From: an uncultured bacterium
GTDB lineage: Bacteria; CALINM01
DNA: 21,707 nucleotides
Direction of reading: 5' to 3'
Assembly: GCA_938045315.1 (NCBI GenBank)
Contig: CALINM010000155.1
Span: 1-21,707 of the forward strand
Shown one piece after another: positions 1 to 17,380 of the stretch (positions are counted from its first letter, which is position 1; the number at the start of each line of letters is the position of its first letter). The notes under the pieces are model-generated. The model saw only the letters and a program-made list of their open reading frames with translations, searched no databases and was not told the origin of the DNA. The translations under genes were made by a program, and so were the position numbers.

Positions 1-1385
1 ATATTAGGTGGAAAATACTCTCTTTTGTAGACGAGATATATTTTTACTCTATTTATTCCCTTTTCTAAGGATTTTTTTATTCCCTCTTCCATTCCAGCTA
101 CATGATAAAAAGGACCAGACTTTGTCATACCACGCACTTGCAATATTGCACCCTCCTTTATAGGTTCTTCAACAATTATATCTACTTCCCTTTCAATGGG
201 CGGCATAAGGGGACCAAATTTTCCAAAGTCGGCGAGGGGATCGGTTGATTGTGATTGGCTATTTACTAAATTATATTCCCCTGTTGACATTTCTTTGAAT
301 CTTTTTAATTCGTTCTTTAAGAAATTTATTTTTTCTAATTTGTCAGTATGACTGCTCTCCTCATATCTTTTTAATTCCAATTCTATGGCATTAATAGTTG
401 CCCTAATTAGATTACTTTTTAATTTTTCCACTTCATCTTTATTTAAATCCAAAGTTTGGGTTACCACATCCCTGATAATAAAATACTTTTCTGAAGATGA
501 AAAGGGATAAAGAGGATTAGTGATTAAAAATGTGTAGGGTAGCTTTGTCTCTATTTCAAGGTCCCTTCCTAAGTCATATTCGATCATAACACCTTCCGGG
601 AAAGAGGCTTTACAATCGTCTGGAATCACTCTTATAAAAGTAATCTCATAATTGGGTACACTACTATCAACTCTGTTCTCAGTTTTTGTAACTTTTGCTT
701 TTATAGTATTTTTATGTGTGCAGCCATTGGTATTGACCCTTATCAAGATTTTATGCTCCTTTACAAGTAGTTCTCTTATTATAATTTCGCCGGGTTCATT
801 TGGTAAAAAGCTATAAGAGCTTTTATTCTCTTTCAATGATGCTTGATTTAACGGTTCCGTGCACGGTACTATGAGTCCATTATGGATTATTTCATAGCAG
901 ATTACCTCTTTTAGGGTTGGTGTAGATTGAGAATCCGTTTCGCGGTGGGTTAATATTGTAAGTTCTATCTTAGTGTTTGATGGTGTAGGAGAAATCCTGG
1001 CAGGATTGACTGAAATCTTTTCTACCTTTATTCTATCCCCTAAAATCACAGAGTTAGTTTGTTTTATTCCCTTTTTATCCCATATCAGGGCGGTAAGTTC
1101 GTAAAATGAGCCACTGCCACCATAAGTGCCAACAAGTATTACTACTGCATCTTTAATGCCATCTGAATTTAAATCCAGAATTTTATATTTAACTAACTCT
1201 ATTTTTTTATAATCATCAGGTGTACTGCCTCTTTCGTACTTACCATTTTTAAGGGTTATTTTTTCATCCAGAAAAGATAAGTAGTAAGTGTAATTTTTTA
1301 ACTCTTTTTTAGTTACGGCAAAAGCCTGTTGTATGGAAAGTAGCAAACATACAAATATGGTGTAAAAAGCAATTTTTTTCAACAT
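1..1385 (-). CDS. Exported protein with FG-GAP-like calcium-loop motif, 3' end outside window
   Basis: An open reading frame of at least 461 codons starts at the ATG ending at 1385 and runs off the left edge with no stop. A near-perfect ribosome binding site (TAGGAGGTGATTAAT) lies directly before the ATG and overlaps the stop of the upstream gene, so the two are co-transcribed. The protein starts MLKKIAFYTI with a signal peptide probably cut after AFA (residue 23). Residues 71-81 read DLNSDGIKDAV, the Dx[ND]xDG loop of FG-GAP/VCBS or EF-hand-like calcium sites, followed by a Gly-rich strand. The rest looks beta-rich with scattered Cys; residues about 330-365 are charged and helical. I recognise no family over the full length. 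An envelope or secreted location is inferred from the signal peptide and neighbours. Confidence 0.85.
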   Translation of the reverse strand, partial: MLKKIAFYTIFVCLLLSIQQAFAVTKKELKNYTYYLSFLDEKITLKNGKYERGSTPDDYKKIELVKYKILDLNSDGIKDAVVILVGTYGGSGSFYELTALIWDKKGIKQTNSVILGDRIKVEKISVNPARISPTPSNTKIELTILTHRETDSQSTPTLKEVICYEIIHNGLIVPCTEPLNQASLKENKSSYSFLPNEPGEIIIRELLVKEHKILIRVNTNGCTHKNTIKAKVTKTENRVDSSVPNYEITFIRVIPDDCKASFPEGVMIEYDLGRDLEIETKLPYTFLITNPLYPFSSSEKYFIIRDVVTQTLDLNKDEVEKLKSNLIRATINAIELELKRYEESSHTDKLEKINFLKNELKRFKEMSTGEYNLVNSQSQSTDPLADFGKFGPLMPPIEREVDIIVEEPIKEGAILQVRGMTKSGPFYHVAGMEEGIKKSLEKGINRVKIYLVYKREYFPPN

Positions 1386-1397
1386 ATTAATCACCTC

Positions 1398-2711
1398 CTA
1401 CACATATTTGTTCGTTACAATAATCTTTGGGTACAATTCATCAGCTTTTTCAGGATCACTACTTACCTGATCAAACAAATTCTCTAATTTACCCAATCCC
1501 TGCCTTATTTCTTCAGCTCTTCTGTTAAACTCCATTGCAGTTTTCCGTAGTTTTTGAGCTTGAAGTAATATGGGATCTTCTTCTCGTTCAAGTTCAGCTT
1601 TCTTAAGATTGAGCTCTTCTTTTTGTTCTTTTAAATTAGTTTCTTTAATTTTCTCTTCAATCTCTGCCTTTTTTTCTTTAATTTCTGTGCGTTTGGATTC
1701 TATCTTATCCAGAGCATTCTTTATCTCTTGCATTTTTTGCTGATTTTCAGTAATTTCAGCCAAATATTTGTTAGATCTCTCCTTTATGTAATGGTAAATC
1801 TTTGCCTGTGAGCTCTCTAAAACAGGGGTAATAGGTGAAGGAACATACACCACTATGGTCTTTTCTGGTTTTAAAGGACAGGGTTTATCAAGATTATCAA
1901 ACTGACAACTTGAGAGCATCCCTGCCATTTCAAAATCTCCAGCAAGGGCAAATTTTAATGCCCTAAGGGAGTATTCAGCTGCGTTTGCAAGTTGCTTTAG
2001 AGTAGAGATGTATTCTCTGAGGTTTTTCTCTTCTAAGAATTTTCTCCCCAGTTTATTGTAGAACCGGGTATTTTCTTTGATAAAGTTTTCTTGTTTTATT
2101 TTTGAGGCTTGTTCAAACTGAGAAAGGTAATCTTCATAAACAAGAGATCCGTGTAGCGCTCTTTTCATTACATCTGCGTGTTGGGGATCAAAGGCTTGAT
2201 TTGTACAGGAGGTAGCTTCATAGTAGTCTTTTCTGGCTGAAAAAACACGAATTCTGTCTTGTTCACACTCCTCTTTTGTATTGTAATTACCTACCAGGTA
2301 TGTCTTTTCGCATATGGGTGGATCGTAAGTTTTTTTGTCTTTGCATTTTGTTATCATTAATAAAGATAAGTCGATGTGCCCTTTAGCCCTCTGTCTTTGC
2401 TGATACTGAGGCACCTCCTTTTGGGAGCTATCAAACCCTACACAAAAGCTTCGGTTGTAAAAAAAACTGTCATTTCTGCCTCCACCAAAGCTTGCTTCAT
2501 AGCGTGCCCTTTCACATTCCTCCTTTGTTTTAAAATTACCAATTCTTGAGGGAGAATTGCAGAGGCGAGGATCATAAGAGGCTGTATTACATAAATCTCT
2601 TTGAAAGCTTGAAATGTCTATCTGCCACTCTGCATATGCTGAATCTAATGAGATAATTAAACTAAACACTGCCAGAGATATTAATTCTTTTAAAGATTTA
2701 TCGTAATTCAT
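1398..2711 (-). CDS. Exported protein with two Cys-rich repeats and a long C-terminal coiled coil
   Basis: 437 residues. The ATG follows a strong ribosome binding site (GGGGAGG) and overlaps the end of the upstream gene by 14 bp, which suggests coupling. A signal peptide ends near SAYA (residue 27). Two copies of a four-cysteine unit follow: C41, C51, C66, C90 and C123, C134, C149, C169. Each contains YDP, then a Cys, G-N-[FY]-[KN]-T-K-E-E-C-E and a closing Cys, so two disulfides per unit are likely in the periplasm. The middle (about 180-290) is helical with another Cys pair (268, 278). Residues about 310-425 are Lys/Glu-rich with heptad character, a probable coiled coil. I do not recognise the family. 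Repeats plus coiled coil suggest a structural or scaffolding envelope protein; that role is inferred. Confidence 0.85.
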   Translation of the reverse strand: MNYDKSLKELISLAVFSLIISLDSAYAEWQIDISSFQRDLCNTASYDPRLCNSPSRIGNFKTKEECERARYEASFGGGRNDSFFYNRSFCVGFDSSQKEVPQYQQRQRAKGHIDLSLLMITKCKDKKTYDPPICEKTYLVGNYNTKEECEQDRIRVFSARKDYYEATSCTNQAFDPQHADVMKRALHGSLVYEDYLSQFEQASKIKQENFIKENTRFYNKLGRKFLEEKNLREYISTLKQLANAAEYSLRALKFALAGDFEMAGMLSSCQFDNLDKPCPLKPEKTIVVYVPSPITPVLESSQAKIYHYIKERSNKYLAEITENQQKMQEIKNALDKIESKRTEIKEKKAEIEEKIKETNLKEQKEELNLKKAELEREEDPILLQAQKLRKTAMEFNRRAEEIRQGLGKLENLFDQVSSDPEKADELYPKIIVTNKYV

Positions 2712-3099
2712 ATAAAACCTCCCCTACTAATCTCTCTTCCTTCGGACCAAAGGCCTTTATGTTATGTTTTAAAAAAACATTTTTTTTAATCCTGACTGGA
2801 GTGTTCAAGATAATTTCTCCTATAACTTTGTATTCAGTATGATCTTCAGGTACATATCCTTCTTTTCTGTAGAAGATTTTATATTTATATTCAAAAGATA
2901 AACCATCAAATTTTACAGGCACAAATTGCCATTCATCGGGTATATAAACAATGGCAATCTTTTTATCAACATAAGGATTTTTTACAACTAAGTTCCCACT
3001 ATTATCAAAACTAAACTCTGTGCTAATGTTAAGATAAGGAGGGTTCACATTTACTTTTGGATTATAATCAAGCATTTTCCATTTTCTTGTGTTATTCAT
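2698..3099 (-). CDS. Small beta-rich orphan protein, possibly the 3' part of a split gene
   Basis: 133 residues with no recognised domain. The body alternates hydrophobic and polar residues (IAIVYIPDEW, FEYKYKIFYR), suggesting a beta-sandwich. Unlike nearly all its neighbours it has no signal peptide, and the ATG at 3099 has no clear ribosome binding site. An internal ATG at codon 9 (MLDYNPKV) is a possible alternative start. The 3' end overlaps the start of the Cys-repeat gene by 14 bp, so this end is well integrated in the operon. The upstream side borders a stop-rich non-coding segment with 11-bp repeats. One reading is that the original gene's start lies beyond that segment (the leader-peptide ORF at 3235-3414) and was separated by an insertion. 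It may instead be an intact small cytoplasmic protein. Confidence 0.6.
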   Translation of the reverse strand: MNNTRKWKMLDYNPKVNVNPPYLNISTEFSFDNSGNLVVKNPYVDKKIAIVYIPDEWQFVPVKFDGLSFEYKYKIFYRKEGYVPEDHTEYKVIGEIILNTPVRIKKNVFLKHNIKAFGPKEERLVGEVLYELR

Positions 3100-3234
3100 C
3101 GTTTAAATGGTAAAAAACACAAAATAGTTTTCACTTGAATTGCACTTAATTATCACTTAATTGGCACTTAATTAGCTTTTTTAAAATTGTCCAAAACCAT
3201 TATTTATCAAGCCCTTAAACACTTTTTAAACACC
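3100..3234. other. Non-coding AT-rich segment with 11-bp repeats
   Basis: On the minus strand this stretch has stops in all frames and no plausible gene. It contains GTGTTTA-type short repeats (3206-3232), then four 11-bp direct repeats (3132-3175), then a T-rich stretch before the next ATG. It is the longest stretch without a gene in the window. It could be a leader, a small-RNA region or the remnant of a small non-coding insertion; the sequence alone does not decide. Confidence 0.5.
3132..3175. repeat. Four 11-bp direct repeats (CACTTAATT core)
   Basis: The core CACTTAATT begins at 3143, 3154 and 3165, with a variant CACTTGAATT at 3132, so the period is exactly 11 bp over four units. On the gene strand each unit reads about AATTAAGTG. 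One unit per helical turn would put all copies on one face of the DNA, as in protein-binding arrays. There are no spacers of CRISPR length. Confidence 0.75.
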
Positions 3235-3414
3235 TCATAAAAATCCCAAACTAAGTGTTAAAATTGGTAATTTTTTGGTAAAACTGGCAAAAAATCTCAA
3301 ACTACCTGAAAAACTATTCCCCTCTTCCCAAAGCTTCTCTGCTGCACTTGTGGCACAGGCGATTTTAAAAGTTATCAAAGCAAAATATAATATTACAATA
3401 AGTCTGATTCTCAT
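3235..3414 (-). pseudogene. Leader-peptide ORF, probable 5' fragment of a broken exported-protein gene
   Basis: An ATG at 3412-3414 with an AAAGGGACAA ribosome binding site starts a 59-codon ORF. A TTG five codons upstream overlaps the previous stop but is less likely. The first 20 or so residues are a good signal peptide (RLIVILYFALITFKIACA), followed by AEKLWEEGN, which resembles the beginning of a TPR-type helix. After that the sequence becomes Ser/Phe/Leu-rich low complexity from a T-rich DNA tract and stops. A strong start and export signal followed by a degenerate tail suggest an exported protein cut short by insertion or rearrangement, with the gene at 2698-3099 as a possible remainder. 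A genuine small exported peptide cannot be excluded. Confidence 0.4.
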
Positions 3415-3425
3415 TTGTCCCTTTA

Positions 3426-3842
3426 TCAAAGGTTAAATATAGCTGTATAAGATGTTATTATCTTGCCTTCTTTTGACTGAACCCTTATATCTACTTTCCA
3501 CCTTCTTTGGTGATCCTTAAAATTTACCATTTTACCGGTTAGCATTACCACTGCATTTTTATTTATAGAAAAGCCCTTTTTTGACATAATTTCTCTAAAT
3601 CTTTTTGCCATTTCCTGCCCTATTTTTAATTGTTTACCTTCAAAGTTAGTAAAATCAACAATCTCTATTTCCTTAATATGGCGATTATTTAGCTCTACTG
3701 AGAGAAAATTAACAATTCTCTCTATCTTGGCCATATTTTCTTTTGTAAACTTAACTTTTTGGTTCCCTTTTTCCCCGGCAACTTTGTGGGGTGCTAAAAT
3801 AAATATCATGAAGATAAATATTAAGAAAACATTTTTTTTCAC
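3426..3842 (-). CDS. Small exported FlgO-like protein
   Basis: 138 residues, starting at GTG with a TAGGTGTTAAT ribosome binding site that overlaps the stop of the upstream transglutaminase gene, 8 bp away. A signal peptide (MKKNVFLIFIFMIFIL) probably ends near KVAG. The mature part runs from an N-terminal helix (VNFLSVELNN) to IEIVDFTNFEGK, then a helix with AKRFREIM and a final set of strands ending SYTAIFNL. This matches the layout of the FlgO/CsgG-type fold, where a strand ending VxDF is followed by a conserved helix. It is shorter than usual, with only one such domain. It may be a paralogue of the product of 5551-6483. An envelope location is likely and the function is unknown. Confidence 0.75.
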   Translation of the reverse strand: MKKNVFLIFIFMIFILAPHKVAGEKGNQKVKFTKENMAKIERIVNFLSVELNNRHIKEIEIVDFTNFEGKQLKIGQEMAKRFREIMSKKGFSINKNAVVMLTGKMVNFKDHQRRWKVDIRVQSKEGKIITSYTAIFNL

Positions 3843-3850
3843 ATTAACAC

Positions 3851-5533
3851 CTACATTAATAAACTAACTTTAAACACAAAATCATAGTTTTGGATATCTT
3901 CCCACTGAAACCCCTTTAGAGTGGATCTTGTATCATCTTCATCACCGTAAGGGTTGCCCGGTATGTAGTACCAATTCATAATAACTTCTCCAGAATGTCT
4001 CAAGACTATCCAGTATTTTCCTCTTTCCAACTCAATGTTTTCCGGGAAATTAAATTCTATCCAGTAATAGCCCGGTTGCTTTTTTAGTTTTTCAACAAAA
4101 ATTGGATTAGATCTATAACCATTCAAACTCGGCTTGCCATCTTGATCCTTTACAAGATCTATGTATACTGTCCCATCTCCACCAAATTTACGCATGGCAA
4201 GTGAGATTTTAGTCAACTTAGCTTTTCTATCAACACTAAATGCCTGTGCAAATACATATTTTGATGTAACATATTCAGCCGTTTCTTTGTCTAAAATTTT
4301 TATACCTTTATCGCCTTCCACTCTGAAAAGTTTCACAAAGTCTGGGAAATCAAGATTACCTATGTCTTTCATCACAGGTTTTGTATCTGCTTCGGGTTTT
4401 TCAGAAGGAACAACTATCAGGGGAGCAGTGTCCTGCTGCTCTGGCTTTATTGGCGGCACAGTAGGTTTTGATGGTGGGTATGGCATGATTTCTTTTGCAA
4501 TCAGATCATTTGAAAAAATATATGACTTTGGGCTTCCCTCGGTACGTTTAGCAACAAGCTTTATTTTATCCTCCAAATACTGCGCATCTATATACTCATT
4601 ATAGACTGGCACATAGGGGCTTGAAAACCACATATCGTTGATATCATCAGAATCGAGACCGTGTGTCTGTTTTATATGTCTGGTAGAAGTAAATTGTTTG
4701 GACTGCTGAGGGTCATAAGATAACCATCCTAAATCGGGAAAGTATATTTCTATCCAAGCATGACCACCTTGTCCTAAACTTTGAACAATGTACTGATTAT
4801 CACCTACAGGGATTTTCAATGGATCTTTCAAACTTATGCCCCCTACGATTCGTGCAGGAATGCCTGCAGCCCTGAGCAAAGCTATTGCTAAATGGGCATA
4901 ATTCTGACAGTTTCCTGATTTTGTATTAAATGTGTAAATTGCATCATACTGTGGTGGATTATAGGTGTATCTGACATTATCTACAACATAGTTCAATATT
5001 TTTGTTACTGCTTCATACTCACTTTTAGCATCTTTAACAAGATTTTTTGAAATATTTTTAATTATCTCAGAATCGCTTTGTACTTTTGGTGTGGGCTTTA
5101 AAAAAACCTTCTCTCCTTCAGGTATTTTTTCTAAGGGATAGGGAGATTTACTCTCCATAGCTTTGATATCTGCCTTCAAATCTACCTGAAAACTTAATTT
5201 AATGTTTATATTCTGTGATACATTACTCCATTTAACAATTTTAAAGTGGTTACCAAAGGCATCCCGCTTGTCTTCCACACTTTCTGGGTCAGGATTATAC
5301 TTAATGTTTAGGCTTACTAATTTTTGAGATACTGAAGGATTAGAAAAATCCGATGGTAAAGCAAACTTAAATTTCATGCTTTTAAGAGGTTTATCTACAT
5401 CGAATGATATGGTTTGATTAACATTAATTTTTCCAGACAGATTCCCATCAAGAACTATCGTTTTACCATGCGTTAAAGGGACAAAAGAAAAAAGTAAAAG
5501 TAATAAATAAAAATTACCCCACCTAGTTATCAT
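3851..5533 (-). CDS. Exported transglutaminase-like cysteine protease-fold protein
   Basis: 560 residues with a signal peptide (YLLLLLFSFVPLTHG). The N-terminal 150 residues are beta-rich. The transglutaminase core spans about 175-290 with an apparently intact triad: C209 in GNCQNYA, H258 in GGHAW and D274 in YDPQQ. Such domains act as proteases, amidases or crosslinkers on peptides. A Pro-rich linker (about 350-390) leads to a C-terminal beta-domain (about 400-560) with motifs such as GYYWIEFNFP and GKYWIVLRH, resembling the jelly-roll modules found at the ends of secreted proteins. It starts 17 bp after the previous stop with only a weak ribosome binding site, so coupling is likely. Periplasmic or surface processing of a partner from this cluster is an inference. 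Confidence 0.87.
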   Translation of the reverse strand: MITRWGNFYLLLLLFSFVPLTHGKTIVLDGNLSGKINVNQTISFDVDKPLKSMKFKFALPSDFSNPSVSQKLVSLNIKYNPDPESVEDKRDAFGNHFKIVKWSNVSQNINIKLSFQVDLKADIKAMESKSPYPLEKIPEGEKVFLKPTPKVQSDSEIIKNISKNLVKDAKSEYEAVTKILNYVVDNVRYTYNPPQYDAIYTFNTKSGNCQNYAHLAIALLRAAGIPARIVGGISLKDPLKIPVGDNQYIVQSLGQGGHAWIEIYFPDLGWLSYDPQQSKQFTSTRHIKQTHGLDSDDINDMWFSSPYVPVYNEYIDAQYLEDKIKLVAKRTEGSPKSYIFSNDLIAKEIMPYPPSKPTVPPIKPEQQDTAPLIVVPSEKPEADTKPVMKDIGNLDFPDFVKLFRVEGDKGIKILDKETAEYVTSKYVFAQAFSVDRKAKLTKISLAMRKFGGDGTVYIDLVKDQDGKPSLNGYRSNPIFVEKLKKQPGYYWIEFNFPENIELERGKYWIVLRHSGEVIMNWYYIPGNPYGDEDDTRSTLKGFQWEDIQNYDFVFKVSLLM

Positions 5534-5550
5534 AAAATTAATCGACTTGC

Positions 5551-6483
5551 TTATCTCTTTAATTCCGTTCTTTTAAATACCGCTTTATAAACCTGATTAC
5601 TTTCATCATGAAGGGCTATGGTAAAATCAACAGTTCTTACAGTGTCTGGGACTTTTATGAAATAAATTACACCATTCTCTGAAACATTTGGTACCAGGTC
5701 TGAATATACATAGTAGTTATTATGTCCTGTTCTTCCACCAAAACTCATCTCCTGAACCATATAATTTACACCATTTTCATCATATAGAGAGCTTGTATTG
5801 CTTAAATAGAACCGCCATGGTTCGCTCTTTTTTGAAGTGATCGTAAAACTACACATTGTGGCTATATCTAATTGTTTACACTGTTTTAACTCAAATCGAA
5901 TGCCATTATGTTCAATAATGTCAAGAAATTCACCTAAAAAGGAGGTTTTTTCGCCGCCTTTTTCAAAATCTTCTCTAAGCAAATCTTTTATTTTCTCATT
6001 AAGTGGTATATCAACTTTTTTTGTTGCTACAACCTTACCAGAATATGTGGAGATAAGATTAACAGAGAGCCTTATATAACTTTTAAAAACACTTATTGTT
6101 CCAGAAACTATACCCCCCACTTTGGCTTTACTGCCTAAATCTTTTATCTCTTTCTGATCATAGGGATGTTTCAATACAAAATCACTTTCACTAATACTTG
6201 ATTTTAACTGGCTTCTGTTAAGAACTTCATAATTATTAGCTTTTTTGGAAATATCACTGGATAGTTCATCAGCTAAAAACTGCCCTAACTTCCCACTAAC
6301 ATCTTTATCATAGATAAAATCAACTACTACTATTCTTTTTCTACTGGCTATTTTATCCATGTTTGTATTTACAAATGAAGCAAGCTCACTAACTTTTTTT
6401 TGATAGGTAAATCCATCACTGGCTAAAAGAAGTAAAATAGACAAAATAAAACTTGCATAGAAGGTTTTTTGCCACTTTTTCAT
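5551..6483 (-). CDS. Exported FlgO-like protein with C-terminal beta domain
   Basis: 310 residues. An N-terminal hydrophobic segment (residues 8-22) is a signal peptide or anchor. Residues about 30-165 have the FlgO/CsgG-like layout: an N-terminal helix (VSELASFVN), RIVVVDF, a helix with LGQFLADELSSDI, VLNRSQL, GSKAKVGGIVSGTI and a closing strand on SGKVVATKKVDIP. In Vibrio, FlgO is an outer-membrane protein associated with the flagellar basal ring; CsgG relatives form secretion pores. Residues about 180-310 are a separate beta-domain (FTITSKKSEPWRFYLSN) not normally found in FlgO. The ATG has a GGGGAG ribosome binding site that can be buried in a predicted hairpin in the 50-bp gap upstream. 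No Cys sits at a lipobox, so this is not a classic lipoprotein. Confidence 0.78.
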   Translation of the reverse strand: MKKWQKTFYASFILSILLLLASDGFTYQKKVSELASFVNTNMDKIASRKRIVVVDFIYDKDVSGKLGQFLADELSSDISKKANNYEVLNRSQLKSSISESDFVLKHPYDQKEIKDLGSKAKVGGIVSGTISVFKSYIRLSVNLISTYSGKVVATKKVDIPLNEKIKDLLREDFEKGGEKTSFLGEFLDIIEHNGIRFELKQCKQLDIATMCSFTITSKKSEPWRFYLSNTSSLYDENGVNYMVQEMSFGGRTGHNNYYVYSDLVPNVSENGVIYFIKVPDTVRTVDFTIALHDESNQVYKAVFKRTELKR

Positions 6484-6488
6484 AAGAG

Positions 6489-6504
6489 CTCCCCTTGAGA
6501 GGAG
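6489..6504 (-). promoter_or_regulatory. Hairpin that would sequester the ribosome binding site of the FlgO-like gene
   Basis: On the gene strand CTCCTC, a four-base loop (TCAA), then GGGGAG can pair over six positions including one G-T. The GGGGAG arm is the ribosome binding site of the gene starting at 6483. The CTCC-rich arm could alternatively pair with GAGAGG in the upstream hairpin at 6508-6528, giving two exclusive folds. This is seen by eye; no folding energy was computed. Confidence 0.4.
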
Positions 6505-6507
6505 ATA

Positions 6508-6535
6508 GGAGAAGCCTTTTGCCTCTCCTTTTTTT
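6508..6535 (+). terminator. Terminator-shaped hairpin plus T-run, oriented for plus-strand transcription
   Basis: On the plus strand an 8-pair stem (GGAGAAGC with GCCTCTCC, one G-T) with a five-base loop is followed directly by seven T. This is the shape of a rho-independent terminator, but for plus-strand transcripts, while all genes here are on the minus strand. The T-run overlaps the stop codon of the LPP20-like gene. For minus-strand mRNA it would be a plain hairpin between two genes. Confidence 0.5.
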
Positions 6536-7445
6536 ATTGCAAAACAAATGCTACTTTTGCTCCCGCAAGGAATCCCGATTTCTGGTTTGCTGAAAATATT
6601 TTTACCGCATCCTCTTCAGATACTTGTAAATCAGAAGGTGAAACCGTTCCTATCGCTTTTACTACTAATGGGTTTTTAACCCCCCTCTTTTCAAGAGCTG
6701 CTTTAGCTTTATCAATACTGTTTGTATATTCACCACAACCTTGCTCCACCAGGACCTTCTGACTCACTTTAGATGGGTCGTAAATTACCTCTCCCTGGGG
6801 AGTAAAAATTCTATTTATAAGAGCAGGTCTAAAATTCTGTTCTGTGGCATCTATTATAAGCCCATCATAATTAGTTTCAAGTTTTACAGGCTTCGTTTTA
6901 AATTCAGGCTCGGGTTTAATTAGATCTCTCTTAATTTTTGGATCACCCATTATTTTTTCATAGATTATGCTGCTAAAGCTTCTTGGACCTGTCATACCTA
7001 ACTTTACAATGACAAGAGCCGTTTCCTCCTTGTCATTATATTCTTTATATACCACCTGAGCACCTTTAACTACACCTGCAACTGCTGTCCTGACAACATC
7101 ATATTGAAGTTCAGCATCCTTTACAAGAGTATCACCAACAACTGCAATACCTTCAAGAAACTCAGCTAATTGTCTGTAAGCCAAAACTGTTGCAGCACGC
7201 TCAGCAGTTAATCTTCTCTGCCCAGGAGATCTTGAATTGGGTTTGGGTAGTCCTTCTGCAGCAACTAATATGTAATCATTAATGAAAGCCTGTTCTGGCG
7301 TAGATGTAATAGTTAAATTATTTTTATTCAGCCATTCATTAGCTGACTGAAACCTCTGATCTAACTGAGCTTGCATGTCTTGCTGTGCAAAAACTAAACT
7401 ACTTAAAGACAAGATAACTAAAATCAACAAAAGTATTTTTTTCAT
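6534..7445 (-). CDS. LPP20 family (FlgP-like) exported protein
   Basis: 303 residues from the ATG at 7445, chosen because GGAGGGTGGT lies immediately before it; an in-frame GTG 12 bases upstream falls before the ribosome binding site. A signal peptide (KKILLLILVILSLSSLVFA) is cut before QQD, with no lipobox Cys. Residues about 65-170 hold the LPP20 signature, including AERAATVLAYRQLAEFLEG. A C-terminal region (about 195-303) reads GLIIDATEQNFRPAL, NPLVVKAIG, and ends GAKVAFVLQ, as in longer LPP20 relatives. LPP20 includes Vibrio and Campylobacter FlgP, an outer-membrane basal-disk component. It sits 17 bp after the SLH gene, so it is co-transcribed. A structural role at the outer membrane is inferred. 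Confidence 0.82.
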   Translation of the reverse strand: MKKILLLILVILSLSSLVFAQQDMQAQLDQRFQSANEWLNKNNLTITSTPEQAFINDYILVAAEGLPKPNSRSPGQRRLTAERAATVLAYRQLAEFLEGIAVVGDTLVKDAELQYDVVRTAVAGVVKGAQVVYKEYNDKEETALVIVKLGMTGPRSFSSIIYEKIMGDPKIKRDLIKPEPEFKTKPVKLETNYDGLIIDATEQNFRPALINRIFTPQGEVIYDPSKVSQKVLVEQGCGEYTNSIDKAKAALEKRGVKNPLVVKAIGTVSPSDLQVSEEDAVKIFSANQKSGFLAGAKVAFVLQ

Positions 7446-7462
7446 ACCACCCTCCACAAATT

Positions 7463-8677
7463 TTAATAAATATTTACTCTTTGTCTTAGCATTCTAATTG
7501 CAAGTAACGCCTCAGCTCCATCAACAGGTGCATTTATTCTAAACTCACCAGAGAGCTCCCCTTCCATAATGCCCCTGGATGTCATATTCATAACAGCATT
7601 GAAGAAAGGGGATGTATTTTTTACATCGGGGAAAGGTGATTTTTCTGTGCCAAAATAAGCAGTGGCCAACTTTTCATCTCCTGTTAATTTAATTAATACA
7701 TCTTCAAGGATAAAAGCCATTTCCCCACGACTTACAAAATCATTAGGTTTGAAAAGATAAGCTTTAGTTGTTTCATCAAACTTTGGTTCTAAACCACGGA
7801 CCTTAAATTTTAAAATTGTCACAATCTCTTGCTTAAAGGGGTGATTCATTATATCTGCAGGTATAAATTCTGGCTTTAAAACATCAATTTGAGATTGAAC
7901 GGGAATCCTTCCACTAAAAAGTTTATCAATTTGTAGTTCGTCAATTAGTAATGCTGAAAGGTCACCACGCGTTATAGAATCTTTTACCGCAATTTTTTTA
8001 CCCACATCGCCAACAGTTATACCAGCCATTGCACGAACAATTTTATCTGTCTTTTTCCACATTTTATCAGCCAGCCCATGCCATTTACCTTCTCTTTTTG
8101 AGTTTAGTACATCAGCAAACTTATCCCTTGCTTTCTGGAATTCTAAGGCTTCTAAATATGCTATGCCCATAAAATAGTCTGCAGCTTCCTTGCCCTTATA
8201 GTAAACAAGTTTTTTTTCATCCACATCAATATTTTTTACATCCTTAAAAGCTTTTTCTACTTTTCTTAACCATTCTTTACCTTTCAAAGCTGTGTATACC
8301 CTCATTCTCGCCAGGTAATAGTCAAACATATCTGCATTATCATCTGCGGTACCCTTTGCTTTTTTCAAAAACTCAAATGCCCTTTCAACCTGCACCTCCC
8401 TTAACTTCAAGTCCTCATAGGTTTTGGCAATTTCCGCTGTAACAATAGCAAGTCCACTTTGAGCCCTGGAAAATTTCTCATCACAGTATATGGCCCTATC
8501 AAATTTCTCCTTAGCTAAAGTAAGTTTGCCTTCTTCAAGGGCTTTCATACCCATTAAATAATGGTGCTCTGAGTTGTCCTCTGGAGAAGTACATCTCTTC
8601 GAAACTGCTGTTGAACAACTTGTTATAAATGTCAAAACTATAATACTTAAAATTCCAAAAAATACCTTTCTCATCAT
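7463..8677 (-). CDS. Lipoprotein with TPR-like helices and C-terminal SLH domains
   Basis: 404 residues. GGAGGTGTT precedes two adjacent ATGs; the first is used. The signal peptide ends in a lipobox, ITSC, with C21. Residues about 38-215 form TPR-like helices (HHYLMGMKALEEGKLTLAKEKFDRAI and similar, shown here only as an example of the A-G-Y/F spacing). From about 225 to 404 there are three S-layer-homology-like units, the last two clearest: FVSRGEMAFILEDVL and FPDVKNTSPFFNAV with MEGELSGEFRIN. SLH units usually bind secondary cell-wall polymers or peptidoglycan, so this may tether the outer membrane or a complex to the wall. It begins a possible new transcription unit: the 79-bp gap upstream carries the 16-bp motif shared with the fecR-like gene. 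Confidence 0.85.
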   Translation of the reverse strand: MMRKVFFGILSIIVLTFITSCSTAVSKRCTSPEDNSEHHYLMGMKALEEGKLTLAKEKFDRAIYCDEKFSRAQSGLAIVTAEIAKTYEDLKLREVQVERAFEFLKKAKGTADDNADMFDYYLARMRVYTALKGKEWLRKVEKAFKDVKNIDVDEKKLVYYKGKEAADYFMGIAYLEALEFQKARDKFADVLNSKREGKWHGLADKMWKKTDKIVRAMAGITVGDVGKKIAVKDSITRGDLSALLIDELQIDKLFSGRIPVQSQIDVLKPEFIPADIMNHPFKQEIVTILKFKVRGLEPKFDETTKAYLFKPNDFVSRGEMAFILEDVLIKLTGDEKLATAYFGTEKSPFPDVKNTSPFFNAVMNMTSRGIMEGELSGEFRINAPVDGAEALLAIRMLRQRVNIY

Positions 8678-8730
8678 AACACCTCCAGCCCTTATCTTAC
8701 TTTCAATTAAATCACAGTTTAAAAATAAGT

Positions 8731-8746
8731 AAAGGTAATTTTCACA
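8731..8746 (-). promoter_or_regulatory. 16-bp shared upstream motif, copy 1
   Basis: The gene-strand sequence TGTGAAAATTACCTTT lies 54-69 bp upstream of the SLH lipoprotein ATG, in the only sizeable gap between the CsgG-like and SLH genes. The identical 16 bp lie 47-62 bp upstream of the fecR-like gene. TGTGA is also the half-site of Crp-family operators, but the second half (TCACA) is absent. A regulatory site is inferred. Confidence 0.5.
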
Positions 8747-8756
8747 TTTTTATAAT

Positions 8757-9959
8757 TTAGTAACCCAATGATTTTATTAACCCTTGACTACCAATTTCTG
8801 TTCTCTCAACAAGTTGTCCTGGCTTTACCCTTTTTATTGAAATCTCCTCTCCATCAACAACAAACCAGCTCTTATCTTCCTGAATCTGATTGGTAGGTCT
8901 CAAAATGACTGGAAGCTTGACTTTATCACATGACTTCTTGCCCGTTAAAGGATCTTCAATTTCCTGAAAGGTATAAACATATAATGTCATATCTTCCCTA
9001 ATACCCTGTTTTCTTCCAATATTTACCAAGGCAACTTTTCCCTTCCCGTCAGGAGTAAGCCTTGTTTGGAGAATGTAACCTTTTATGGTAAATAATTTTG
9101 ATAACTCAGATCTTACTTCATTAATTGCCTTTGAACCAGCTTTTTTAATACCCCCTATAAGGGCATCATAGTTTGGATAAGGAATTTTACCAATAACTTC
9201 CTTTCCCTTCACAATTTTTGAAAAAACAATTTCACCCGTCTCCACATCAATCATTCTTAGAGATATATCTGTTTCTATATTCCAGCCTTCATTAGCTTCA
9301 GCACCTGCGGCAAGAACTGAACCCACAAGTCCCAAATGCTTTGTTAAAGCCTCTTTCGCCCCTTCTAAGGTGACCCATTTTAAATTTACATTGTTGATTG
9401 AACCTGTAATAATGTATTTTACACCAACCAATTTCCCAAAATTAACAAGGGTTTTTTCATCCGCAAGACCGGAAGCCTGAAATTTATGTTCTTCTAAAAC
9501 TTTTTTTAGTTCTGATCTAGTAAAAACCTTTGCACCGCCTAATCTAACTATTTCATCAGTTATACCATCCTCCACACTCTCTGCTAATTTTGCATTTATT
9601 TCTCTTTCAGTTCTCTGTAAGTCTTCAGCATAATTTCTCTTTTCCCTTTCTCCCCATACAGCACCTGCTGCACCTGGTATAACACCCACCGCTGCTCCCC
9701 CAACCTTCGTTTTTTGACTTGCCCCCTGAACACTTGTTTGAATTGTTTTAGCATAATCAAAGGTGCTATTATTTGAAAAATTAACCACAGCAACCCGCGG
9801 TATTGTTGCATCATATAATGCCTTACAAACTGAAGGAATTATCTCTTTGTCGGTATTATCGGGCAAACACATGGTGGGATCAATTCTTGCCACCGTGGGT
9901 GCACAACTAATTAAATAAGCTATCATTAAAAAATAAAAAATGTCTTTTCCCATCCACAT
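8757..9959 (-). CDS. CsgG-family outer-membrane lipoprotein with FlgT-C-like domain
   Basis: 400 residues from the ATG at 9959, preceded by GGAGGTGAAT; an in-frame GTG four codons earlier lies before this site. The signal ends in the lipobox LISC (C19). The CsgG-like domain runs from about 50 to 285: VAVVNFSNNST, EDGITDEIVRLGG, VFTRSELKKVL, LVGVKYIITGSINNV and IDVETGEIVFSKIVKG. CsgG forms the outer-membrane pore that exports curli subunits. Two insertions stand out, around 85-105 (Gly/Ala-rich, VGGAAVGVIPGAAGAVWG) and around 195-220. Residues about 295-390 resemble the FlgT C-terminal beta-domain (GKVALVNIGRKQGI, then VKPGQLVER). No curli subunit gene is visible. A pore or ring role is inferred from family; the substrate is unknown. 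Confidence 0.85.
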   Translation of the reverse strand: MWMGKDIFYFLMIAYLISCAPTVARIDPTMCLPDNTDKEIIPSVCKALYDATIPRVAVVNFSNNSTFDYAKTIQTSVQGASQKTKVGGAAVGVIPGAAGAVWGEREKRNYAEDLQRTEREINAKLAESVEDGITDEIVRLGGAKVFTRSELKKVLEEHKFQASGLADEKTLVNFGKLVGVKYIITGSINNVNLKWVTLEGAKEALTKHLGLVGSVLAAGAEANEGWNIETDISLRMIDVETGEIVFSKIVKGKEVIGKIPYPNYDALIGGIKKAGSKAINEVRSELSKLFTIKGYILQTRLTPDGKGKVALVNIGRKQGIREDMTLYVYTFQEIEDPLTGKKSCDKVKLPVILRPTNQIQEDKSWFVVDGEEISIKRVKPGQLVERTEIGSQGLIKSLGY

Positions 9960-9976
9960 ATTCACCTCCACATATG

Positions 9977-11158
9977 TTAATTTTTTTCAAAGAAATAATT
10001 AAAAATTATAGTATCTGAAGAATATTTTACTAATTCAAAACCCTTCTGAATTAGACTATTAGCAAGATATATGGGATTTTCAGAGTAGGTAACTATAAAT
10101 TCTCCCAATCCCTTTTCTTTAACTTCCATCACCCAGGCAGTATTTTGCAGTTCTTCCTTAACCTGGAAATTTTCTTTTATACTACTCACATTTTCAACTT
10201 TTAAATTCACCCTTCTTGCACTGTTTTTTATGAACTCTCTTAATTTATCTATGATTGTAGGTATAACTTTATCCGCTATACTGTTCATGGCTTTTTCTGT
10301 AGCATCTTCAATGTTAGGAGCAAGCCCTTTTGATTCATCAGTACCAGATGCTAACACTATGATTTTGCCACTATTAGCATCTCTTGATATTATCCTGTAT
10401 TGCAACCTTACAGTGACATTATTAAAGGGCATGGAGATACCATATCCTGCGTCCTGACCTTTTTTTGTTGAGATGGAGTAATCCATTTTACCTATAATAA
10501 GAACATTTGTTAGCAACTTATAAATCATGCTTTTTAAACTCAGATAGTTACCACTTTTAATAGCTTCTTCTATTCTCCTTGCCTCTATTATTTCTGTAGG
10601 AGCCAGATCTATCACTGTAAAACCCTGATTGGTTAGCTCATCAATTAGTTTTTCTGTCAAAATGTTTGTTTCTTCAAACTCTTCTTTTGTTTCCATTTCA
10701 TAATGTTTCTTACCCTTTGTTATAAACTCTCTTTCTGATAATAATTTTGGTTTTTTTACGGGTATAAATACTGAAACTGAATTATTTAATGCTAAACTTG
10801 AAAGAGCTTTTTCAGCCTTTTTCATTTCCACACAGGCATTAATCTTAACCTGATAAATATCACCCTTTCTCTCCTCACCAAGTATTTTATAACTCTCCAC
10901 AACACCCCTTATCTCCTTACTAACCGCATCATCCACAAGGACCATGTTTTGAACTACACTTTGGGCTTTGACCTCTACACCTGCAAGTTCTTCGATGGCA
11001 TTCCACTTTGCCCTTGCTATTGCCTCTGCTTTTGCAGAAATTATATCATTTCTATTGATAATTGCCTCTCCTTCGAAAATACCACACCTAACCTCTCCAT
11101 AAGCATTGTTATAAACAAGTGCGATAAATACAAAGGTCATTAAATATTTCACAAACAT
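9977..11158 (-). CDS. Exported FlgT-like protein
   Basis: 393 residues. AAAGGAG precedes the ATG by six bases. A signal peptide ends near NAYG. Residues 22-115 match the FlgT N-terminal layout: GEAIINRND, AKAEAIARAKWNAIEELAGVEV, then GDIYQVKINACVE. Residues about 125-315 look like the FlgT middle domain (VSVFIPV, LIDELTNQGFTVIDL, NVLIIGKMDYS, GKIIVLASGTDES). The C-terminal 75 residues are a further alpha/beta unit. In Vibrio, FlgT builds the H ring around the flagellar basal body. Here it lies 11 bp after a Crp-type regulator and 17 bp before a CsgG-like gene, without flagellar neighbours. A periplasmic ring or assembly role for another machine is possible; homology was judged by eye from motif layout. 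Confidence 0.78.
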   Translation of the reverse strand: MFVKYLMTFVFIALVYNNAYGEVRCGIFEGEAIINRNDIISAKAEAIARAKWNAIEELAGVEVKAQSVVQNMVLVDDAVSKEIRGVVESYKILGEERKGDIYQVKINACVEMKKAEKALSSLALNNSVSVFIPVKKPKLLSEREFITKGKKHYEMETKEEFEETNILTEKLIDELTNQGFTVIDLAPTEIIEARRIEEAIKSGNYLSLKSMIYKLLTNVLIIGKMDYSISTKKGQDAGYGISMPFNNVTVRLQYRIISRDANSGKIIVLASGTDESKGLAPNIEDATEKAMNSIADKVIPTIIDKLREFIKNSARRVNLKVENVSSIKENFQVKEELQNTAWVMEVKEKGLGEFIVTYSENPIYLANSLIQKGFELVKYSSDTIIFNYFFEKN

Positions 11159-11169
11159 GATTAACTCCT

Positions 11170-11856
11170 TTAAAAACCTTTTTGAATGGTTGATACTAAA
11201 AAGTTTTTTCCTTCTTCTATGACAAGTTTCTCAAACAAAAGTATCTTCATGGCTTTAGAAATAGCTTCCCTTGACGATCCAATTCTTGAGGCTAACTCTT
11301 TTTGTGTATATTTTCTAATGATATAAAATCCATTTTTAATTTCTGCATTCTCACTCTTTGCAATCTCTTGCAATAGCTTTAAAAGCCTTTCACTCACATC
11401 AAGAAAAGCTAAAGAGCTTACAATCGCATCAGTTTTCCTTAACCTTTGAGCTAGAGCACGAAGCATTTCAATGGCAATATTAGGTTCATTTTTAATTAGC
11501 TCTAAAAATTTAGACCTACTTAACACCCCTAACGTTGCATCTTCTTCTACAATGATTGTTGCTGATCTTGTCTCACCATCAAGAAGGCTTAACTCCCCAA
11601 AAAAGTCTCCCTTTTTGAAGCAAGTAATAATAAACTCTTCTCCTTCTTCGTTAAAAAGTGAGGCTTTAAGACAACCCTCAAACACTATATAAAGATCTGA
11701 GCTATAATCAGATTGGTAGAATACTACATCCTCTTTCTTTTTACGTAATATTTTACAATTTTCTGCAAGGAGAGTAAGATGCTTATCTGAGAGATTTTTG
11801 AATATGGATATGGCTTGAAAAATATGTTTACCCTCTTCAAGGAGCGAGTAATTCAC
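11170..11856 (-). CDS. Crp/Fnr family cyclic-nucleotide-binding regulator
   Basis: 228 residues, GTG start after AGAGGTGAT. The cyclic-nucleotide-binding barrel covers residues about 15-130, with the phosphate-binding cassette FFGELSLLDGETRSAT; E88, R97 and S98 match the cAMP-contacting Glu, Arg and Ser of E. coli CRP. The dimer helix follows, then a winged helix-turn-helix at about 165-215 with YTQKELASRIGSSREAISK as the recognition part. Its three Cys are not in the FNR iron-sulfur arrangement, so a nucleotide ligand is more likely than redox sensing. It sits between the cyclase-containing block and the FlgT-like gene, 11 bp before the latter, so it may read the cAMP made by the product of 14196-16298 and regulate this cluster. 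Ligand and targets are inferred. Confidence 0.9.
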   Translation of the reverse strand: MNYSLLEEGKHIFQAISIFKNLSDKHLTLLAENCKILRKKKEDVVFYQSDYSSDLYIVFEGCLKASLFNEEGEEFIITCFKKGDFFGELSLLDGETRSATIIVEEDATLGVLSRSKFLELIKNEPNIAIEMLRALAQRLRKTDAIVSSLAFLDVSERLLKLLQEIAKSENAEIKNGFYIIRKYTQKELASRIGSSREAISKAMKILLFEKLVIEEGKNFLVSTIQKGF

Positions 11857-11916
11857 CTAATCACCTCTATTTTAATTAAACATTTTTTAACATTTATACT
11901 TCATTAGTCAATAAAA

Positions 11917-14181
11917 TTATTTATCAATTTTCTCTAAAATAAATTTTACCTGGTTATCCTCCGGATTCAATTTTAATAATTCTTGAAAAAATTTTATGGC
12001 TTTTTTGTTCTCATTATTTTCATAATAAAGTAGCCCCAGAGCTTTTACTATAGATTGGTCCTTTGGAAATTTTTCATAAGCTTCCTCAAGGTAGTTTAAG
12101 GCAACATTAATTTCCCCCATTTCCTTATAACAAATAGCGATATAGTAGTAAACCTCTGGTGTGGGAAAAGCTTTAAGGGCTTCTTCAAATTTATTTACAG
12201 CCTTTCCATAATTTCTTTGTCTAAAAAAATTGCCTCCCTCAACTATATACTGCGTTGCCCTTTCTCTCCTTTCCTCTTCAGTTAGGCTGAGGTAAGGATT
12301 TGATATAACTTCAACGGGTTTACCCTCTGGAAATCTTTTATTTAGTACCTTATCTGCTATAACATTTATTATTTTCAAATCTCCCTTATTTATTGCACCA
12401 AAGAAGTTTAATGAAATCTTATATGATTCCAGAGACTCAATATTGACTCCATTATTAAAAATATTATTATAAGAAATCTCTCCTGAAAAATGCGATAACT
12501 TTATCCCTAACTCATTTTGAAAAATATCATTTTCTCTAACATTTATTGATGATTTAACTATCTCAATCCCTAATTTATTATTAAAAATCGATGTTTTGCT
12601 TATCTCAAACCTGGTACAGTTATCCACTAAAATACCATTTATTGAATTAGAAATGACTGACTTTTCAATAAAACCCATAGAATCTATAACTTTTAAAGCA
12701 CTTCTGGCGTTTTTTATTTTTAAGCCCCTTAATTCAACATAACCATTTTTTATGGTAATCCCATCCCACATATCGTTATCACTTTCTGGCTTAAACTCAG
12801 TGTAATCAGTACCATCAATTGTTAATTTTCCTTCCACTGTGATAGATGTATTTTGTCCCATCAAAAACACAGACCCACCCTTAATCTCGATAAAAATCCC
12901 CTTTGGTATAATTAGTTCCCCTTTCACCCTATATACACCTTCATAAACTGTGTCTTTATTTAAAATCCCACTGATTATGGGTGGCTCAGATAAAGTCCTT
13001 TGTGCCCTAACATAATCAGACAGTAAAGATTCATTTCCAGCATGATCAATTGCTTTTATCCTATAAAAATAATGTTTACCAGGAATAACTTCTCTATCTT
13101 CAAATTCTTCCACTTCCACAATACCCAGTGATTTATATCCAGAGAGAGGTTGTTCGCTTCTCAATATTTCATAGCCCTTCAGATCAGGTGTATTATCCAG
13201 TGGCGTCCACTTTATCTCAATTCTATCAGGATACCCTTTTGTCTTTATGTTTTTTATGTTGCTCGGGGGCACAGTATCAATAGTTACAAGCCCTGAAACA
13301 TCAATCCATTTATTTTCATAACCTCCCGGTTTTTTAAGATAAACTATAATTGGTGAATTAGTTGTGTTATCACCATCCACAACTATATATTCCCCTGTAT
13401 AAATACCTTTTTTAACCTCTCTCATTAAAATCCCCTTCTTAAAATTACCTATATCAAAACTTGCAATCATACCCGGATCTCCTTCTAACCCAACCCTGAT
13501 TATCTTACCTTTTCCAAAAGGTGAGTCTTTCACATTCGTTATAACCTCTTTGATGTTTGGTAGTTTATAATAAGCAAGGACTGGGGAAGAAGGTATCTTT
13601 TCAGTAATTTTATAACATAGTTCGTTTAGAAGCCTTATAAACTGTATCTCTCTCAGATTCATCGCTGTTGATACTGCTGTCATTACAGCAGAAAGGGGTG
13701 ACATGGGGATATTACCTTCATGATACCTAACAGATTCCTTTATCCTGAATACCTCTTTATCATTTTTTATACTGTACATGCTTACTTCAGCCTCAATCCC
13801 TAACTGAGAATAGGCAACAGCATAAATTTTTTGAAAGTCAGTAATTTTGCCATAGATAACTCCATCGCATCCAATGGCTTCACAAATTTCTTTGGGTGAT
13901 ATGTCTTTATAAGGTTTACCCTTGACCTTTTCTAGTTGATATATTTTTTCATCCACTAGAGGGAGCTCTACATTTGTATAATTTTTACCTGAAAAGTGAT
14001 TGTAAAAAGTTTTTCTTAAGGTGTCTGCAATATTAAAGTCTTCATATTCAAAGGGCAATATGGCAACAACTTTTGGATAGTCCTCTTCTGATATAATCTT
14101 CCTAATATCTTTATTTTTTTCATTTATTGCAGAGGAACAGGAAAGTAAAAAAACCAAAAGAAAATATGCTATTCCTTTCAT
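11917..14181 (-). CDS. Multidomain lipoprotein: GNA1162-like, FN3, beta-helix and TPR
   Basis: 754 residues from the ATG at 14181, chosen because a GAGGGGGG ribosome binding site precedes it and the sequence then starts with a lipoprotein signal (lipobox LLSC, C15). An upstream in-frame start inside the cyclase gene has neither. Residues about 30-210 resemble the GNA1162/DUF799 lipoprotein family (VVAILPFEYED, IGCDGVIYGKITDF). Next come a beta region (about 225-305), a fibronectin type III domain (about 315-400, WTPLDNTPDLKGYEILR), repeated short strands typical of a right-handed beta-helix (about 415-590, NGILVDNCTRFEIS, NKLGIEIVKSSINV), and about three C-terminal TPR units (about 640-750). 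The surface modules suggest binding of polysaccharide or protein. The gene follows the cyclase by 14 bp. This domain combination is unfamiliar to me. Confidence 0.83.
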   Translation of the reverse strand: MKGIAYFLLVFLLSCSSAINEKNKDIRKIISEEDYPKVVAILPFEYEDFNIADTLRKTFYNHFSGKNYTNVELPLVDEKIYQLEKVKGKPYKDISPKEICEAIGCDGVIYGKITDFQKIYAVAYSQLGIEAEVSMYSIKNDKEVFRIKESVRYHEGNIPMSPLSAVMTAVSTAMNLREIQFIRLLNELCYKITEKIPSSPVLAYYKLPNIKEVITNVKDSPFGKGKIIRVGLEGDPGMIASFDIGNFKKGILMREVKKGIYTGEYIVVDGDNTTNSPIIVYLKKPGGYENKWIDVSGLVTIDTVPPSNIKNIKTKGYPDRIEIKWTPLDNTPDLKGYEILRSEQPLSGYKSLGIVEVEEFEDREVIPGKHYFYRIKAIDHAGNESLLSDYVRAQRTLSEPPIISGILNKDTVYEGVYRVKGELIIPKGIFIEIKGGSVFLMGQNTSITVEGKLTIDGTDYTEFKPESDNDMWDGITIKNGYVELRGLKIKNARSALKVIDSMGFIEKSVISNSINGILVDNCTRFEISKTSIFNNKLGIEIVKSSINVRENDIFQNELGIKLSHFSGEISYNNIFNNGVNIESLESYKISLNFFGAINKGDLKIINVIADKVLNKRFPEGKPVEVISNPYLSLTEEERRERATQYIVEGGNFFRQRNYGKAVNKFEEALKAFPTPEVYYYIAICYKEMGEINVALNYLEEAYEKFPKDQSIVKALGLLYYENNENKKAIKFFQELLKLNPEDNQVKFILEKIDK

Positions 14182-14195
14182 ACAACCCCCCTCTT

Positions 14196-16304: not shown

Positions 16305-17348
16305 CTATTTTAGTAGTTTCATGATGGTCTCCACATTACCCATATACCGTCCCTCTGGATACTCTTTTATATATTGCAAAAGCCTTTCTTTTGCAGCTTC
16401 AAAAAATTTAAGTTCATATAAAGTCATCGCTGTTAAATACAATGCAGTTTCTCTTTGTGGCACTTTGGGGTATTCTTCGAGAACAAGTAAATACTCAGCA
16501 AGTGCAGCTTCAGGGTTTTTTAAAAACCTTGCATAAACAGCTCCTCTCTCCAATCTTGCATCACTTCTTATTTCTGGATTTTCTGTCAGATCAAGGGCAA
16601 TTTGAAATACATAGAGAGCTTCATCGTATTTACCTGAATCTGCAAGATAATGACCATAATTTATGTTCCATCTCGCGATAATGTGGGGAAGATTATTGGA
16701 TAACTCCCAGTCTTTTGGTGGCTTAGCAGATGTTATCTCTGAAAAATACCTCTTTGCCGTATCAAGAGCAGTATTAGGCTCAACTTTCACTGGATCAGTT
16801 GGTACATATCCCCTCGTATTTTGAACCATGGTATCCATAGTGAGCGGCTTTGCCTGATCCACATTGCCATAGATCTCTGCCATCCCTTCATTACCAAAAA
16901 ACACATTTGCTTCCCCCTTGGCCATCATCATAAATTCAGTACCTTTAATGCCTGCAACTGCTGTGGAACTCTTTATTTTATAATTCACCTTATCCTGTGA
17001 CATCTTAACAATATGGGCCCTCAATTTTCCCTGAGTGACACTAAATACACCCTGTCTGCTTTTTTTACTTATTATAAATTCTGTTATCTCCAGCTCAGTA
17101 TTATTAGCAAGCGTGAGTTTACTACCATCCACAAGAGATAAAATTGCCCAGCCATCATCACCCGTTTTTATCCAGTAACCCTCTTTTAATCTGGCACTCT
17201 TTTTTACTTCACTGTAAGGTATATTTTTCTTATCTCTAATATAAACAGATCCGGATTTATCTGTTAAAATTGCGATATATTCATCCCCAAAGGCCACATA
17301 TGGTAAATAGGGAATTAAGAAGACTAATAAAAATAAAAGTATTCTCAT
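16305..17348 (-). CDS. FecR-domain periplasmic protein with TPR repeats
   Basis: 347 residues from the ATG at 17348, chosen because AGGAGG lies six bases before it; an upstream in-frame ATG at 17378 lies before the ribosome binding site and would mask the signal peptide. The signal peptide (RILLFLLVFLIPYLPYVAFG) is followed by a FecR domain at about 28-155: GSVYIRD, LKEGYWIKTGDDGWAIL, DGSKLTLANNTEL and TAVAGIKGTEF. Residues about 215-345 are TPR-like helices (YGHYLADSGKYDEALYVF). There is no membrane anchor apart from the signal, so it is periplasmic rather than a true sigma-factor regulator. It is the first gene before the CHASE2 cyclase and may supply or modulate its input. Upstream lie the 16-bp shared motif and nested inverted repeats. 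Confidence 0.9.
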   Translation of the reverse strand: MRILLFLLVFLIPYLPYVAFGDEYIAILTDKSGSVYIRDKKNIPYSEVKKSARLKEGYWIKTGDDGWAILSLVDGSKLTLANNTELEITEFIISKKSRQGVFSVTQGKLRAHIVKMSQDKVNYKIKSSTAVAGIKGTEFMMMAKGEANVFFGNEGMAEIYGNVDQAKPLTMDTMVQNTRGYVPTDPVKVEPNTALDTAKRYFSEITSAKPPKDWELSNNLPHIIARWNINYGHYLADSGKYDEALYVFQIALDLTENPEIRSDARLERGAVYARFLKNPEAALAEYLLVLEEYPKVPQRETALYLTAMTLYELKFFEAAKERLLQYIKEYPEGRYMGNVETIMKLLK

Positions 17349-17380
17349 AAATCCTCCTTCTAAATCAATTGATAGCATAA

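Follow-up and report, generated by a model that had tools for sequence, protein, structure and literature searches.

A conserved cluster of exported envelope proteins

The stretch of DNA analysed here (the window) is a 21,707-nucleotide contig of the uncultured bacterium CALINM01. All genes of the window lie on the minus strand. The genome to which it belongs (G000) is ~92% complete, and genome-wide statements on it are based on profile searches. Positions 3426–11158 constitute a conserved unit that encodes FlgT-, CsgG-, FlgP- and FlgO-like proteins together with a lipoprotein carrying SLH domains and a transglutaminase-like protein. The genes of this unit are as follows (aa, amino acids).

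9977..11158, minus strand: FlgT_N-like exported protein, 393 aa, the putative "first half" of a split FlgT
8757..9971, minus strand: lipoprotein, 404 aa, the putative "second half" of a split FlgT
7463..8677, minus strand: lipoprotein, 404 aa, TPR repeats and SLH domains (SLH 4.8e-17; lipobox TSC)
6534..7457, minus strand: exported protein, 307 aa, FlgP/SHS2-like ring domain with hairpin insert followed by a domain like D2 of Tp0624 (FlgP-D2)
5551..6483, minus strand: FlgO-like exported protein, 310 aa (Pfam FlgO 1.6e-8, over cut-off)
3851..5533, minus strand: exported transglutaminase-like protein, 560 aa (Transglut_core 6e-29)
3426..3842, minus strand: small FlgO-like exported protein, 138 aa (weak FlgO assignment)

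An earlier note, made from the sequence alone, had recognised relatives of CsgG, FlgO, FlgP and FlgT in this region and proposed that they form a shared machine. Profile and structure-prediction searches place the core proteins in these families, the product of 3426–3842 weakly. As a single sequence, the FlgP-D2 protein has no Pfam match. A profile built from 51 of its relatives matches Campylobacter FlgP (9hmf) at 6e-16 and the Vibrio LPHT ring (8z5n) at 2.9e-11, and a broader 27-sequence profile matches FlgP 9hmf at 1.8e-17 and Tp0624 (5jir) at 2.7e-15 across D1–D2. This profile spans both domains, and a D1–D2 tandem of the Tp0624 type is thus present in the window protein. The predicted model (mean predicted local distance difference test, pLDDT, 80.7) agrees with the profiles, the C-terminal domain superposing on Tp0624 5jir (Z 15.4, 2.1 Å, 118 residues) and the N-terminal domain matching FlgP (Foldseek 1.5e-5, 28% identity), so that the proposed LPP20/FlgP-like identity is borne out. 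According to Drobnic et al. (2025, PMC12222027), ring formation across the FlgP family goes together with an insertion that separates the SHS2 helix from the second strand. The corresponding hairpin-insert region of the window protein aligns without gaps to Campylobacter FlgP, and its model places two extra strands there (109–113 and 116–121) at pLDDT <50. The D2 domain of Tp0624 was described as a new fold without a function, the D1–D2 unit without D3 was reported in nearly 50 bacterial proteins, and Tp0624 itself carries an OmpA-type domain in one chain with the FlgP-like and D2 unit (PMC5104382). At L083:5896-7953 and L084:12689-15259, very large proteins (685 and 856 aa, respectively) that contain FlgP-D2-type parts are encoded next to a normal FlgP-D2 gene. 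At L191 (G036 C93) 5034-7175, adjacent FlgT-like and FlgP-D2-like genes occur with no SLH lipoprotein, a pair that is possibly a two-gene form of the module.

The two genes at 9977–11158 and 8757–9971 are most readily interpreted as one FlgT divided between two genes. Alone, the first product matches Pfam FlgT_N at 1.3e-5, just below the cut-off, and FlgT_N is found in 32 of the 35 members of its family (best 1e-10), in keeping with the FlgT-like protein noted earlier. The second consists of a CsgG/PelC/FlgT_M-like domain (residues ~55–295) followed by a FlgT_C-like barrel (~295–393), as the earlier description of a CsgG lipoprotein fused to a FlgT-C-like domain had it. Pfam CsgG (4.4e-10) and LpoB (1.1e-7) both match it over cut-off; CsgG matches 32/32 of its relatives and FlgT_C 5/32, and FlgT_M is also matched among them. 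The top PDB matches of its predicted model (mean pLDDT 79.1) are two FlgT structures, FlgT in the Vibrio ring 8z5n (2.7e-13) and the FlgT crystal structure 3w1e (3.6e-13), with CsgG, PelC, GNA1162 and LpoB ranking behind; by VIA-align, PelC (Z 11.8), FlgT (11.4) and CsgG (11.0) are tied. The two-piece reading rests on a positive control, locus L190 (G284 C11), where flgP-flgO-flgT lie at 12089-14666, a few kb from flg genes around FlgI. Residues 21–138 of this flagellar FlgT match the family profile of 9977–11158 at 5e-16, and residues 261–414 match that of 8757–9971 at 1.1e-6. The FlgP of L190 matches the FlgP-D2 profile at 7.7e-14, and its FlgO is matched weakly by the cluster profile.

Two FlgO-like proteins had been proposed, and of these the product of 5551–6483 stands, being the only FlgO match across the window genome. 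The product of 3426–3842 has no Pfam match alone, and FlgO is matched by 3 of 12 members of its family (best 1.6e-4), so that this assignment is weak. Its gene comes after the transglutaminase gene in several Nitrospirota loci. A search of the FlgO relatives against solved structures gave no match. The transglutaminase-like protein retains an intact triad (C209, H258, D274) that is invariant across 12 relatives.

The TPR–SLH lipoprotein, identified by its SLH match and lipobox as anticipated, is the constant partner of the FlgP-like gene. A role for its SLH domains as wall anchor is plausible. The usual SLH ligand is doubtful in the window genome, because the CsaB-type pyruvyl transferase family (PF04230) was found neither in G000 nor in 23 of the 29 carriers tested (carriers are defined below). 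In the family relative G002, and only there, a gene for an OmpA-like coiled-coil lipoprotein lies between the FlgP-D2 and FlgT genes (L023:14836-16053). Both the SLH domains and an OmpA-type partner, present in the same chain in Tp0624 and encoded next door in G002, suggest wall anchoring.

Conservation of the module and its independence of the flagellum

A search of 366 sampled genomes with the SLH lipoprotein yielded 32 carriers, defined by full-length homologues at E<1e-14, which fall in 19 families. A single-sequence neighbourhood map shows that the FlgP-like gene adjoins the SLH gene in nearly all 32, mostly at ~25–33% identity to the window. The nearer relatives comprise 62 named loci from Nitrospirota/Thermodesulfovibrionales, Geobacterales, Desulfuromonadales, Syntrophorhabdales, Nitrospinota and others. 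In 57 of these the SLH and FlgP-D2 genes are adjacent, in one they are nearby, and in four the contig edge is reached. The linkage is therefore not due to chance, given the 57 adjacent pairs and the position of four of the other five loci at a contig edge. Fisher's test of co-occurrence of the two families gives 5e-30, a value that is partly circular since the FlgP profile was made from neighbours; unbiased support comes from the single-sequence map. Other components lie within eight genes of the SLH gene less often (FlgT in 38, CsgG in 30, transglutaminase in 23 and GNA in 20 of the 62 loci). In Geobacterales the pair often lacks accompanying FlgT and CsgG genes, and SLH plus FlgP-D2 is therefore the minimal core of the module. 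Among cultured relatives, Trichlorobacter thiogenes and Geobacter sp. OR-1 possess this core.

Gene content is thus kept across 19 families, with the SLH lipoprotein as constant partner of the core genes and the transglutaminase as a recurrent neighbour, and the shared module proposed earlier holds to this extent. The gene order is rearranged, being FlgT-CsgG-SLH-FlgP close to the window and FlgP-SLH-FlgT-CsgG in distant relatives. In distant carriers (the L056-L129 neighbourhoods), the genes around the cluster repeatedly include those for Peptidase_C14 (caspase-fold) and TPR proteins.

The module needs no flagellum, since 16 of the 32 carriers lack both FlgI and FlhA. All of the FlgI-negative carriers are also without FlhA; they include G126 and G172, both rated 100% complete, and G126 holds nearly the full gene set. 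FlgI occurs in 16/32 carriers and in 123/334 other genomes, an enrichment that is not significant (p 0.18). The 25 commonest families among the neighbours scanned in distant carriers include no flagellar family; these neighbours are housekeeping, TPR and caspase-fold proteins. The flagellum as an obligate partner is rejected on the count of FlgI- and FlhA-negative carriers, and the separateness of the module from it is upheld. The earlier observation that flagellar genes are missing is correct for the window and not for the genome, which is flagellated and contains FlgI, FlhA and a flgF-G-A-H-I-J...K-L locus. In the window genome, searches with the Pfam families revealed no further CsgG, FlgO or LPP20/FlgP-like genes outside the cluster at ~92% completeness. 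At L192 (G192 C4) 7029-14790, apparent flgB, flgC and fliF genes are located ~4 kb from a FlgP-D2 gene, and the D1–D2 protein may therefore serve a flagellum in some lineages. A type IV pilus was also rejected as partner (PilQ over cut-off in 9/32 carriers vs 115/334 others, p 0.56), a coarse comparison because the PilQ profile also matches other secretins.

Flanking genes and boundaries of the unit

The linked neighbourhood reaches upstream of the conserved unit to ~17378 through the first four entries below; the fifth lies on its downstream side.

11170..11856, minus strand: Crp/FNR-type regulator, 11 bp upstream of the FlgT_N-like gene (cNMP_binding 1.4e-20)
11917..14229, minus strand: GNA1162-like/NosD-repeat/TPR lipoprotein, 770 aa, associated (the GNA gene counted above)
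14196..16298, minus strand: CHASE2 adenylate/guanylate cyclase, associated neighbour (CHASE2 1.2e-59)
16305..17378, minus strand: FecR–TPR exported protein, associated neighbour (FecR 3.9e-11)
1..3099, minus strand: three lineage-specific exported or coiled-coil open reading frames, outside the conserved unit

From 17378 to 3426 the genes run in the order FecR–TPR, CHASE2 cyclase, GNA1162/NosD/TPR lipoprotein, Crp, FlgT_N-like, CsgG-like lipoprotein, TPR–SLH lipoprotein, FlgP-like, FlgO-like, transglutaminase and small FlgO-like, spaced tightly by 5–80 bp or overlapping. A Crp gene occupies the equivalent position in L056, L057, L094, L102, L111, L139 and L146, and Crp is the probable regulator of the operon. 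The CHASE2 cyclase gene also accompanies the cluster in Geobacterales and distant families, and a gene matching the FecR–TPR profile is near 19 of the 39 loci with G handles. Promoter scans gave no rise above shuffled sequences, and terminator-like sites were only slightly above them.

Downstream, a 326-bp gap separates the cluster from the open reading frames at 1–3099, of which none has a homologue in any of the fetched relatives. These frames, which the earlier note had listed with the cluster as a Cys-repeat/coiled-coil protein and a large exported protein, are rejected as cluster parts. At the other end of the window, the product of 18020–19573 is kinase-like, has an AAA_33 domain at its C-terminus and is encoded beside a gene for 5-formyltetrahydrofolate cyclo-ligase; G002 keeps this gene pair at a distance of at least ~11 kb from the envelope cluster.

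A candidate ring or scaffold under the outer membrane

Half of the carriers are without a flagellum, and the module therefore probably builds a separate structure, a ring or brace beneath the outer membrane. We give about an even chance to a flagellum-independent, outer-membrane-associated ring or scaffold of FlgP-, FlgT- and FlgO-type proteins that is anchored to the wall. The analysis establishes homology, folds, gene linkage and independence of flagella; the ring assembly (from homology), the location, the wall binding and the bracing function of such a device are what we infer. The ring itself would be made up of the FlgP-D2 protein, like that of FlgP in Campylobacter and Vibrio, with the two FlgT halves and FlgO as its lining or cap. 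The TPR–SLH lipoprotein would be lipid-anchored in the outer membrane, with its SLH domains linking the ring to the cell wall and its TPR part bringing in components. The transglutaminase would probably cross-link or trim envelope proteins, and Crp would govern expression. Several points weigh against this proposal. No ring has been seen. The hairpin region with which ring formation correlates falls below a pLDDT of 50, and the full gene set is not always together, as the Geobacterales pair is often without adjoining FlgT and CsgG. Within the family, moreover, cluster and flagellum co-occur, both being present in G000 and G002, and the congener G001 (~92% complete) lacks the cluster, FlgI and FlhA.

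The best of the alternatives, though an unlikely one, is a general tether between outer membrane and cell wall, or an LpoB-like aid to wall synthesis that activates synthases, with no ring machine. Such a role would suit the SLH/FlgP-D2 pair as the only universal core, the LpoB family matches of the CsgG-like protein and the OmpA-type partner in Tp0624 and G002. It leaves the joint recurrence of split FlgT, FlgO and FlgP ring-type domains unexplained, and with the CsaB-type enzyme missing in 23 of the 29 tested carriers, the usual SLH ligand would be absent in most of them.

We consider it improbable that the cluster encodes an accessory ring, of H-ring or basal-disk type, of the organism's own flagellum, placed apart from the flagellar genes. 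The window genome is flagellated and has its only detected CsgG, FlgO and LPP20/FlgP-like genes in the cluster, and G001 is without both cluster and flagellum, as this explanation would have it. An equal gene set in FlgI-/FlhA-negative genomes (including the complete G126 and G172), the lack of significant FlgI enrichment and the 25 commonest families among the neighbours scanned in distant carriers, none of them flagellar, argue against it.

Least probable is a CsgG-type secretion pore that exports a fibre or a surface protein and has the remaining cluster proteins as its chaperones: the CsgG profile matches in the window and in all 32 relatives, and some Nitrospirota relatives retain longer second-hairpin segments, but FlgT heads the fold matches and PelC and CsgG at most tie with it, the first hairpin segment is modelled as helices, the second has 25 residues and looks too short, neither curli genes nor secreted cargo are seen among the Pfam-annotated genes of the window, and no cargo recurs. 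The export pore of the earlier note is not supported, the window protein folding like FlgT/PelC. The pre-pore (non-lipidated) form of CsgG may likewise have no membrane strands at the hairpin segments, and the model taken by itself is therefore not decisive against a pore.

The proposed wall-anchored ring or scaffold resembles several known systems. Homologues of FlgO, FlgP and FlgT are encoded together, as for the H-ring of the sodium-driven polar flagella of Vibrio, whereas in the cluster FlgT is two genes, FlgP has an extra D2, an SLH–TPR lipoprotein and a transglutaminase are added, and occurrence extends to bacteria without flagella. The FlgP/SHS2 domain aligns with that of the Campylobacter FlgP basal disk through the ring-forming insert; the cluster protein differs in its D2, in export without a lipobox and in having no flagellum requirement. 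The likeness to Tp0624 extends to D1–D2 in sequence and to D2 in fold, but Tp0624 has its OmpA-like domain in the same chain and wall binding in the cluster would use a separate SLH lipoprotein. As in OmpM-type tethers, the SLH domain is in a protein expected at the outer membrane; in contrast to OmpM, this is a TPR lipoprotein of no beta-barrel family, and it occurs in Nitrospirota and Desulfobacterota. OmpM is reported absent from Gracilicutes (PMC10628300). The first domain of the CsgG-like lipoprotein shares the fold of the CsgG and PelC rings of curli and Pel export (Z 11–12), from which it departs in the added FlgT_C-like barrel and the short second membrane hairpin segment, in a window without curli or Pel genes.

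Searches of the open-licence literature returned nothing on CsgG with LPP20 or SLH, on Geobacter SLH lipoproteins, or on the cluster itself. The parts belong to known families, and their combination and flagellum-free use appear to be undescribed. We tentatively suggest that the cluster represents an undescribed, flagellum-independent envelope machine of many phyla, a FlgP/FlgT/FlgO-type ring that an SLH lipoprotein secures to the wall, of whose building set H-rings, basal disks and Tp0624 may be later offshoots. In the literature consulted on them, FlgO, FlgP and FlgT are treated as flagellar add-ons. Building blocks kept for another job in flagellum-free bacteria would be a testable source of the rings recruited by flagella, and the cluster would give a first functional context to the uncharacterised D1–D2 unit of Tp0624 and to the SLH lipoproteins of Gracilicutes.

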